Assembly: GCA_004210915.1 (NCBI GenBank)
Contig: SEGS01000001.1
Coordinates: forward strand, 1 to 64,000
Source of the DNA: Variovorax sp.
GTDB taxonomy: Bacteria > Pseudomonadota > Gammaproteobacteria > Burkholderiales > Burkholderiaceae_C
Length of the DNA: 64,000 nucleotides
Direction of reading: 5' to 3'
Shown: positions 52,304-58,637 of the stretch, one piece after another
Layout: every line of letters starts with the position of its first letter
Numbering within the stretch: position 1 is the first letter of the stretch
The notes under the pieces: model-generated
Told to the model about the DNA's origin: nothing
Seen by the model: the letters and a program-made list of their open reading frames with translations, nothing else
The model's database searches: none
Made by a program: the position numbers and the translations under genes

Positions 52304-53842
52304 CTAGCCCTGTGCGGCCACTCTCTCAGATTGGCTTTGTAACTTGTTGAGGGCGCTCAGGTATGCCTTTGCAGACGCCACAACGATGTCCGGATCTGCA
52401 CCGACCCCGTTGACCACGCGCCCGGCATTTTGTAACCGAACCGTAACCTCACCTTGGCTCTCGGTCGATCCGCTGATCGCGTTCACCGAATAGAGCACCA
52501 TCTCGGCGCCGCTGTTCACGTGGGTCTCGATCGCCTTCAACGAAGCATCAACCGGGCCATTGCCATCGGACTTGCCGGTGACTTCTTTGCCCTGCACGGT
52601 AAACACGATGGTGGCTTCGGGCCGCTCGCCGGTTTCGCTGTGCTGCGACAAAGACACAAAGGCAAACTGTTCGTTAACGTGCGCCACCTCTTCCGCGCTG
52701 ACAAGCGCAAGGATGTCTTCGTCGAAGATCTCGCTCTTGCGGTCGGCTAGTTCCTTGAAGCGCAGGAAGGCGGCGTTGATGTCGGCTTCGCTCTCCATGG
52801 TCACGCCGAGTTCGATCAGGCGCTGCTTGAAGGCGTTGCGTCCACTCAACTTGCCCAGCACGATCTTGTTGGCGGTCCAGCCCACGTCCTCCGCCCGCAT
52901 GATTTCGTAGGTGTCGCGCGCCTTGAGCACGCCGTCCTGGTGGATGCCCGAGGCGTGTGCGAACGCGTTGGCGCCGACGACCGCCTTGTTCGGCTGCACG
53001 ACGAAGCCGGTCGTCTGGCTCACCATGCGGCTGGCAGCGACGATGTACTGCGGATCGATGTTCATCTCGAGGCCGAAGTAGTCCTTGCGGGTCTTCACGG
53101 CCATGACGATCTCTTCGAGCGAGCAGTTGCCGGCGCGCTCGCCCAGGCCGTTGATCGTGCACTCGACCTGGCGCGCGCCGCCGATCTTCACGCCGGCCAG
53201 CGAGTTGGCCACCGCCATGCCCAGGTCGTTGTGGCAATGCACCGACCAGATCGCCTTGTCGCTGTTGGGCACACGCTCGCGCAAGGTCTTGATGAAGGTG
53301 CCGTACAGCTCCGGAATTGCATAGCCCACGGTGTCCGGCACGTTGATCGTTGTAGCGCCCTCGTCGATCACGGCCTCGAGCACGCGACAGAGAAAGTCCA
53401 TGTCGCTGCGATAGCCGTCTTCCGGGCTGAACTCGACGTCGCCGATCTGGTTGCGCGCAAAACGCACCGCCAGCTTGGCCTGCTCGAACACCTGGTCGGG
53501 CGTCATGCGCAGCTTCTTTTCCATGTGCAGCGGAGAAGTCGCAATGAAGGTGTGGATGCGTCCCCGCGCAGCGCCTTTGAGCGCCTCCGCGGCACGGCCG
53601 ATGTCACGATCGTTGGCGCGCGACAAGCCGCACACGGTCGAATCCTTGATCGCATTTGCAATCGCCTTGACGGCCTCGAAGTCGCCGTTCGAGCTGGCCG
53701 GAAAGCCAGCTTCGATCACGTCAACCTTGAGCTTTTCCAGGAGCTTGGCGATGCGCATCTTCTCGTCGCGCGTCATGGAAGCGCCCGGCGATTGCTCGCC
53801 GTCACGCAGGGTGGTGTCGAAAATAATGAGTTGGTCGGTCAT
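52304..53842 (-). CDS. leuA: 2-isopropylmalate synthase (512-aa form)
   Basis: [34 protein letters not shown]; LeuA C-terminal regulatory domain. Confidence 0.95.
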
Positions 53843-53886: not shown

Positions 53887-55584
53887 TCAGGCGAGCGCAA
53901 CCGTCGATTGTGCGCCGAGTGCGCCGCGGCTCTTCGCGCGCTGCAGGCCCGCGACGATGGCCTTGAGCGACGCAGACAGGATGTCGGCATCAATGCCCAC
54001 GCCGAACAGCGTTTGCGATTCGTCGATGCGCAGTTCGAGGTAGGCAGCCGCCTTGGCATCGGCGCCGGCACCGATCGCGTGCTGGTGATAGTCGATCACG
54101 CGGACGGCGTGGCCGGTGGCCTCGGCGAAGGCATGGATGAAGGCGTCGATCGGGCCGTTGCCGCGGCCTTCAATGCGCCGAATTTCCCCCTCCCACGGCA
54201 GGTCGCCACGCAGGACCACCGATGCGTTGGCACCCTCGCCCTGCTCTTCGATCACGCGGTGCTGCAAAGCCTGCACGGTCTTGAGGCCGTACTCGCGCTC
54301 GAACAGCGCGTAGAGGTCGGCTGCGCTCAGTTCCTTGCCGCCGACATCCATCACGCGCTGCACGGTCTGCATGAACTCGATCTGCAGACGGCGCGGCATC
54401 TCGATGCCGTATTCGCTTTCGAGCAGGTACGCCATGCCACCCTTGCCCGACTGGCTATTCACGCGGATCACGGCCTCGTAGCTGCGACCCAGGTCCTTCG
54501 GGTCGATGGGAAGGTAGGGAATGGCCCAGACGTCGTCGTCCTTGCGCAGCGCAAATGCCTTCTTGATCGCGTCCTGGTGCGAGCCCGAGAACGAGGTGTA
54601 GACCAGATCACCCGCGTACGGATGGCGCGGATGCACCGGCAGCTGGTTGCAGTGCTCGACCTCGGCGCGAATGGCGTCGATGTCGGAGAAGTCGAGGTTC
54701 GGCGTGACGCCCTGCACATAAAGGTTGAGCGCGACGTTCACCACGTCGAGGTTGCCGGTACGTTCGCCGTTGCCGAAGAGGCAGCCTTCGACACGGTGCG
54801 CGCCTGCCATCAAGGCGAACTCGGCGGACGCAGTGCCCGTGCCGCGATCGTTGTGCGGATGGACCGAGACCACGACGTTGGGCCGGTCGGCAAAACGGCG
54901 GCACATCCACTCGATCTGGTCGGCGAAACCATTGGGCGTGCTGATTTCCACCGTCGTCGGAAGATTGAGGATGATCGGCCGCCCTGCACCCCACGCGGTG
55001 ATCGCCGTTTCGCAGGCCTGCAACGACACATCGAGTTCAGTCATACAGAACACCTCGGGCGAATATTGAAGCACCCACTCGGTTTCGGGCTGAGCGTCCG
55101 TCAGGCGCTTGATTTGGCCCACGCTGCGGTCAATGAGCGCCATGACCTCGGGCACGCTCATACCGAACACCACTTCCCGCCACACCGGCGCCACCGCGTT
55201 ATAGACATGAACGATCGCCTTCCGCGCACCGCGCAGCGATTCGACGGTGCGCGCAATGAGCTCTTCGCGCGCCGGCGTCATCACCTGGATGGTCACATCA
55301 TCAGGAATGCGATCTTCGTCGATGAGCTTGCGCAGGAAGTCGAACTCCACCTGCGACGCGGCCGGAAAGCCGACCTCGATTTCCTTGAAGCCGATGCGCA
55401 CGAGCAAATCGAACATGCGCAGCTTGCGATCCAGGTCCATCGGCTCGATGAGCGCCTGATTGCCATCGCGCAGGTCGGTCGACAGCCAGATCGGGGCCTT
55501 CGTCAGCACGGCGTCGGGCCAGGTGCGGTCCTTGAGGCCGATCGGTGCGAATGCGCGGTACTTGGCTTGCGGGTGCTTCAACAT
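53887..55584 (-). CDS. leuA: 2-isopropylmalate synthase (565-aa form)
   Basis: [25 protein letters not shown]; start at [23 protein letters not shown]. Confidence 0.95.
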
Positions 55585-55630
55585 GTCGATTTCTCTGTGG
55601 TGGTGTGACCACCAGCAACCCCCAAACAAA

Positions 55631-55659
55631 ACGGCCCGTTGCTGGTGCGAACGGGCCGT
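55631..55659 (-). terminator. attenuator-type intrinsic terminator upstream of leuA
   Basis: Minus strand ACGGCCCGTT-cgcaccagc-AACGGGCCGT then TTTGTTTG: perfect 10-bp stem. Confidence 0.85.
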
Positions 55660-55680
55660 GGTGAGGGATTTGCGCGCGCG

Positions 55681-55734
55681 CTACCGTCTCCGCCCGTGGG
55701 GCAGGTTTAGTAGGGACAGCGAAATCTTGTTCAT
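55681..55734 (-). CDS. leuL: leucine-rich leader peptide MNKISLSLLNLPHGRRR
   Basis: ATG AAC AAG ATT TCG CTG TCC CTA CTA AAC CTG CCC CAC GGG CGG AGA CGG TAG; four Leu codons including tandem rare CTA, followed by terminator and leuA. Confidence 0.8.
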   Translation of the reverse strand: MNKISLSLLNLPHGRRR

Positions 55735-55775
55735 GAGGACTGGAAATATAGCACGGTCAGGCAAGCCGGTGCCCT

Positions 55776-58555: not shown

Positions 58556-58637
58556 AAGCGAAGAACTCCTCTTTTCGGTGCCCTCCCCGCGCGGCGGTAA
58601 CCGTGCGGCTTGGCAGCCAATAGATTCGTCTTGAGTT

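Follow-up and report, generated by a model that had tools for sequence, protein, structure and literature searches.

The leuA gene of the Variovorax sp. studied here is very probably regulated by a classical, ribosome-mediated leucine transcription attenuator. This reading rests on a short leader ORF biased towards CTA codons, on three conserved alternative RNA helices and on a LeuA-like protein that is encoded directly downstream wherever the element was collected. Past the terminator lies a further segment, designated D, whose predicted helix with the terminator loop is well supported, by covariation.

Leader, promoter and terminator between pssA and leuA

All positions refer to the 64,000-nucleotide stretch as a whole (the window). 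On its minus strand, the interval from pssA to leuA contains a −10 box, a 17-codon ORF, a 10-bp terminator with a U-rich tail and segment D, in that order. The features are as follows, with the basis for each in parentheses.

55776, minus strand: end of the stop codon of pssA, the upstream gene
55745–55753, minus strand: extended −10 box, TGC-TATATT (TGTGnTAnAnT conserved; spacing to the ATG)
55681–55734, minus strand: leuL, predicted 17-aa leader ORF MNKISLSLLNLPHGRRR, stop codon TAG (read from the sequence; conserved in relatives)
55708–55713, minus strand: putative control codons CTA CTA, codons 8–9; CUACU is segment 1 (position bias of CTA)
55692–55697, minus strand: segment 2, ACGGGC, codons 13–15, candidate antiterminator strand (pairs with GCCCGU)
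55681–55685, minus strand: GGUAG, including the leuL stop codon, 1:2 partner of CUACU (paired cells in alignments)
55650–55659, minus strand: segment 3, terminator 5′ arm ACGGCCCGTT (covariation of the 3:4 helix)
55631–55640, minus strand: segment 4, terminator 3′ arm AACGGGCCGT (covariation of the 3:4 helix)
55623–55630, minus strand: U-rich tail TTTGTTTG (sequence; related loci)
55638–55647, minus strand: C′ CACCAGCAAC, the terminator loop plus the first 3 nt of the 3′ arm (partner of D)
55610–55619, minus strand: D GTTGCTGGTG, ending 25 nt before the leuA ATG (duplex energy; partner-swap test)
53887–55584, minus strand: leuA, 2-isopropylmalate synthase, long type, 565 aa, the putative regulated gene (LeuA-like protein downstream in relatives)

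The codons of leuL (55734–55681) are ATG AAC AAG ATT TCG CTG TCC CTA CTA AAC CTG CCC CAC GGG CGG AGA CGG TAG, so that 4 of the 17 encode Leu. The whole hairpin, ACGGCCCGTT-CGCACCAGC-AACGGGCCGT (55659–55631), has 10 perfect pairs and a 9-nt loop; it is followed by the U-rich tail, and the leuA ATG is at 55584. When the minus strand was read again, every statement of sequence and position in the sequence-only reading that preceded this analysis proved correct, including the perfect 10-bp hairpin with its U-rich tail (55659–55623) and the complementarity of ACGGGC (55697–55692) to GCCCGT in the 5′ arm of the terminator. A generic promoter and terminator scan of the window listed neither the −10 box nor the hairpin, probably because the scan required a −35 element and allowed loops of at most 8 nt.

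The box TATATT (55750–55745) is situated 10 nt before the leuL ATG, and the TG at 55753–55752, which had previously been overlooked, makes it an extended −10 box. The motif TGTGnTAnAnT was conserved among 152 promoters aligned on the −10 box; the TA.A.T columns of this alignment are partly fixed by the search pattern and the TGTG columns are not. A −35 element was looked for in the same promoters, and every position from −32 to −4 carried less than 0.25 bit. The distance from the −10 box to the leader ATG was 6–10 nt in all of 147 leaders (6–7 nt in 91, and 10 nt in 33, including that of the window), and an SD-like motif was observed in only three. Transcription that starts about 7 nt after the box, as is usual, would begin at the ATG or at most 4 nt before it. 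As judged from the −10 box, then, the leuL transcript is predicted with moderate confidence to be leaderless or nearly so, and the near-leaderless leuL that had been suggested from the window holds as a sequence feature of the relatives as well.

Conservation, codon choice and alternative pairings

Within the genome collection, Variovorax sp. N23 has the LeuA closest to that of the window (93% identity), which places the window in the Comamonadaceae. Eighty leuA loci from named genomes were compared; the comamonad loci share the leader, and a covariance model (R1) was built from 34 of them. Within the family, this model found a match in 205 of 301 genomes, representing 105 of 141 genera; in a sample of the order it did so in 7 of 200 genomes, two of them from outside the family. 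Ten of 14 model-negative genomes that were checked carry a diverged, Leu-rich short ORF with CTA codons, near which a −10-like box, mostly of the same type, was found; the figure of 205 in 301 is therefore probably a lower bound.

Each of the 171 collected elements is followed immediately, on the same strand, by a gene for a LeuA-like protein. The downstream gene is of the long type, as in the window, at 116 of these loci and of the short type at 55, which argues that the attenuator is kept regardless of the type of leuA. The short type is that of the second, tandem leuA of the window. The two tandem genes behind the single attenuator (53887–55584 and 52304–53842, minus strand; 565 and 512 aa) thus differ in type, and they are about 28% identical. 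Conservation of the leader codons across relatives had been named beforehand as the check on the attenuator, and it is apparent that the leader, its CTA codons, the antiterminator, the terminator and the promoter box are kept in about 105 of the 141 genera.

Among 147 distinct leaders, the typical one contains 3–6 Leu codons. Those of the comamonads typically read MNKISLALLLIP(H/F/Y)GRRR, with the codons CTG-x-CTA-CTA-CTN and small changes between loci; apart from its Leu run and GR ending, the peptide is highly variable. CTA accounts for 349 of the 631 Leu codons (55%) in the 147 leaders, each of which has at least one, as compared with 4 of 2555 (0.16%) in 56 related leuA genes and 1 of 235 in seven genes of the window. 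The enrichment of CTA in the leader is beyond chance, in line with the earlier impression that the tandem CTA codons, rare in such DNA, look selected. Position matters also: Leu codons starting 18–21 nt before GGGC are CTA in 82–88% of cases (up to 100% in smaller bins), and those 6–9 nt before it in 0 of 19. CTA thus clusters at the distance at which a stalled ribosome would free the core of the antiterminator, segment 2. The stop codon lies 12 nt after GGGC in 126 of 145 leaders. In 127 of 147 leaders this stop is TAG, as its pairing with CUA would require.

The three predicted classical pairings, 1:2, 2:3 and 3:4, are all conserved. They were assessed in two alignments, of which A3 was fitted to 1:2 and 3:4, not to 2:3, and A1 to none. 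The 1:2 helix (CUACU:GGUAG) was paired in 96.9% of cells in 45 sequences of A1 and in 93.2% in 100 sequences of A3, which is fitted to it, with three pairs changed on both sides. For the 2:3 helix (ACGGGC:GCCCGU), 95.6% of the cells of A3 were paired, and several changes from G-C to G-U keep the pairing; roughly one sequence in five lacks its outer A-U pair. The 2:3 core is short (5–6 pairs) and nearly invariant, so it offers little covariation of its own. Changes on both sides were seen in 5 of the 10 pairs of the 3:4 helix (50 cells in A3, fitted to this helix).

The footprint of a ribosome extends about 12 nt from the A-site codon, and the window leader was folded with this footprint removed. 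With the A site at codon 8 or 9, the 2:3 helix forms (−15.3 to −17.1 kcal/mol); with a stall at codon 11 it does not, and with the ribosome at the leuL stop only 3:4 is found. Folding with no ribosome yields a fold containing 1:2, together with 3:4. The two CTA codons are therefore the only stall sites for which antitermination is predicted, and a classical attenuator behaves in this way. At equilibrium the terminator is more stable than 2:3 in every masked state, so that antitermination must be kinetic, as it is in classical attenuators generally. Of the pairing scheme put forward in the sequence-only reading, the antiterminator stands; two things had been missed, the covarying segment D and a further helix, 1:2, between the CTA codons and GGUAG.

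A predicted helix past the terminator

Segment D (GTTGCTGGTG in the window), which follows the U tract, is complementary to C′ (CACCAGCAAC), that is, to the terminator loop and the first 3–4 nt of the 3′ arm. In 157 distinct loci the energy of the C′:D duplex averaged −16.5 kcal/mol, versus −9.7 kcal/mol for shuffled downstream sequence. At 111 of these loci p was 0.01 or lower (at most 1 of 100 shuffles with a better duplex energy), and at 129 it was 0.05 or lower. The two partners change together across genera, as in ACCAGCGAC/GTCGCTGG, CCCGCAACG/CGTTGCGGG and ATCCGCAAC/GTTGCGGAT, among others; ATTCGCAAC/GTTGCGAAT and TAGCGCAG/CTGCGCTA are further examples. For 34 C′ variants, pairing with their own D gave −12.9 kcal/mol, versus −9.3 kcal/mol with a swapped D (Wilcoxon p 7e-8, an optimistic value since the loci are related). 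Changes from A-U to G-C at a stem position, seen in the unfitted alignment A1, indicate that the pairing reaches into the terminator stem.

D starts a median of 14 nt after the terminator arm, and in most loci it lies 23–43 nt before the leuA ATG (distance from its end, median 27 nt, quartiles 25–32). An H-type pseudoknot on the terminator would fit these spacings, and the 3–4 nt of pairing within the stem would also permit a mutually exclusive hairpin in place of the upper part of the terminator. The C′:D pairing is thus probably an H-type pseudoknot in the readthrough mRNA, or else an alternative hairpin. Because D lies beyond the U tract and is transcribed after the termination decision, it would have no direct effect on intrinsic termination and must act in the readthrough mRNA. 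A separate hairpin of the Variovorax sequence, GGTGGTCACACCACC (55599–55613, minus strand), sits between D and the leuA start; several Variovorax loci have GGTTG...CAACC hairpins like it, which overlap D at its end.

Three functions for D were considered and rejected. It does not appear to free or hide the leuA SD, as blocking D in 132 loci left the mean predicted accessibility of the SD region unchanged (0.543 versus 0.542), with 24 loci up and 26 down. Neither does it appear to lock the antiterminated fold: in a comparison made without pseudoknot energies, 2:3 plus C′:D had a median stability 6.5 kcal/mol below that of the terminator fold, and the deficit of the antiterminated fold was 4.3 kcal/mol before D emerges, so D brings no improvement. 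Nor is D likely to represent a widespread target in trans, its 12-nt string occurring only twice elsewhere in the genome, near the level of a reversed-pattern control. A tentative proposal, somewhat less likely to be right than wrong, is that the terminator loop serves as a second functional element, forming with D a conserved pseudoknot or replacement hairpin in readthrough transcripts just upstream of the leuA ribosome-binding site. Such a structure might add a post-transcriptional layer (protection of the mRNA or tuning of leuA translation) to attenuation from a leaderless leader ORF.

Proposed mechanism, alternatives and known leucine leaders

In the proposed mechanism, RNA polymerase would use the extended −10 promoter and begin transcription at the leuL ATG. 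The transcript would be leaderless or nearly so, and a ribosome would translate leuL on it. With leucine plentiful, the ribosome would reach the UAG and cover segment 2 (ACGGGC), and the 3:4 hairpin would terminate transcription. With leucine short, it would stall on the rare CUA codons 8–9; segment 2, thereby freed, would pair with segment 3 (GCCCGU), the terminator would not form in time and leuA would be transcribed. If leuL were not translated, 1:2 (CUACU:GGUAG) would form and the terminator would act. In the readthrough mRNA, about 25 nt ahead of the leuA start, D would form its helix with the terminator loop and the first part of segment 4.

The position of D, which in most loci is 23–43 nt from the leuA ATG, and the ability of its end to pair in Variovorax with the CAACC beside the SD, might instead suggest translation attenuation, in which the leader ribosome and D switch access to the leuA ribosome-binding site. 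This is unlikely, given the unchanged mean predicted SD accessibility at the 132 loci and the intrinsic terminator, which is strong, covaries and has a U tract; moreover, the CAACC hairpin is, by eye, not conserved beyond Variovorax-like genera. The complementarity of the exposed loop to D could likewise be read as intermolecular, the terminated leader serving mainly as a trans-acting small RNA or peptide, like rnTrpL/peTrpL, whose loop pairs with D of the leuA mRNA or with other targets. There is a precedent in the trpL of Sinorhizobium meliloti, which yields a leaderless attenuator sRNA with functions in trans (PMC7298713). That reading is markedly less probable still: the covariation of D extends into the terminator stem, which is more like pairing within one molecule, the two occurrences of the 12-nt D string elsewhere in the genome are close to the one found for the reversed-pattern control, and peptide residues outside the Leu run and GR ending vary widely.

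That the hairpin is simply a constitutive terminator of an ilvBHC-pssA transcript, accompanied by a chance ORF, is hardly credible. It does stand directly after pssA, where it would separate two transcription units, but the ORF, its CTA codons, the promoter box and the 1:2 and 2:3 pairings are all conserved, and LeuA stays the downstream neighbour even though the type of leuA differs. The classical leucine attenuator is accordingly the reading retained.

The leu attenuator of E. coli and Salmonella (leuL; Rfam Leu_leader) is similar in that a leader ORF with a CTA run and a terminator lie upstream of leuA, and its antiterminator is mutually exclusive with the terminator. The E. coli leuL, at 28 codons, is longer than the 17-codon leader seen here, and its terminator loop is short where the present one has 9 nt; the present leader differs also in its extended −10 box 6–10 nt before the ATG, its lack of an SD and its segment D, nothing like which is found, by inspection, in E. 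coli. The general features of classical leu attenuators have their counterparts. Clustered codons for the regulated amino acid in a short ORF correspond to the 4 Leu codons in 17, enriched in CTA, of the predicted leuL, and the intrinsic terminator between leader ORF and first gene to the covarying 10-bp stem with its U-rich tail. An antiterminator exclusive with the terminator and a 1:2 protector are both indicated by the alignments and the masked folding, and the spacing of control codons that frees segment 2 is matched by the CTA peak 18–21 nt before GGGC. In the Salmonella leu leader, replacement of CUA by CUG lowered the sensitivity of the control (Carter et al. 1986, as cited in PMC1183508). 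The citing paper names CUA as the best of the control codons in the enterobacterial leu attenuator (PMC1183508). The predicted switch works in the manner of enterobacterial leu attenuation, and differs from it in leader size, SD, promoter placement, loop and segment D.

A transcript that begins at or next to the leader ATG is known from rnTrpL/peTrpL of S. meliloti (PMC7298713). That attenuator is leaderless, as the leuL transcript may be, or nearly so, to judge from the −10 box, but it responds to tryptophan and is alphaproteobacterial. The LEU element found upstream of leuA in Actinobacteria comprises a Leu-rich leader peptide and a proposed pseudoknot. In LEU the run of Leu codons pairs with the leuA SD, and the mechanism proposed for it is that a regulatory protein binds, not attenuation (PMC1262725). 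Here the Leu codons would pair instead with GGUAG at the leader's own stop codon, which sets the element apart from LEU; LEU, moreover, lacks an attenuation terminator and has another topology, whereas a strong intrinsic terminator and a pairing of its loop with a downstream segment are present here.

Other betaproteobacterial leuA genes, from the same taxonomic order, are also preceded by a Leu-rich short ORF, with different peptide ends: ...LPIGC(R/L)A in Cupriavidus and Collimonas, and ...LLLAGLLLR(L/P)AR in other families. The LPIGC(R/L)A-ending leader is well conserved upstream of leuA in Cupriavidus, Ralstonia and a relative (L059, L066, L070, L075 and L081) and in Collimonas and Glaciimonas (L060–L062), and is followed by a conserved hairpin of the GTGGCAG...GCCAC type. 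Across the order, a Leu-rich short ORF ending in ...LLLAGLLLR(L/P)AR or similar often precedes leuA (L205, L209, L221, L224–L228 and others), mostly without an intrinsic terminator by search. In a terminator search of 29 leuA regions from the order sample, 24 yielded no terminator-like hairpin and two yielded the terminator described here; one of these two belongs to the family of the window.

Nine loci and 14 kb of the window were searched against Rfam. In the 14 kb around the element, Rfam 15 gave no family for the leuA leader (E up to 1), no leucine leader matched at three of the loci (L002, L029 and L040; E up to 0.5), and among the loci examined for the LPIGC(R/L)A-type leader no Rfam match was obtained there at L059, L061, L066, L072 and L078. 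A strong match to the ilvH RNA (RF02993; 80.7 bits, above the gathering score) was observed at 58563–58630 on the minus strand, just upstream of an ilvH-like ORF (58555–58064), in the gene row ilvB-ilvH-ilvC-pssA-leuA. A literature search whose coverage excluded older subscription papers returned no report of this leuA attenuator in the Comamonadaceae; a survey of proteobacterial attenuators by Vitreschak et al. (FEMS, 2004) may mention betaproteobacterial cases.

These results point to a concrete control point for leucine synthesis in a large betaproteobacterial family, one that is absent from Rfam. The principle is known from E. coli, and what is added here is a conserved RNA pairing past the terminator, together with a choice of rare codons that is tuned by position across about 100 genera. 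The data also suggest that attenuation can proceed from leaders that have no ribosome-binding site, in which case the timing between polymerase and ribosome must differ from that in E. coli. A covarying RNA helix located after the terminator, finally, goes beyond what the standard model of attenuation explains.
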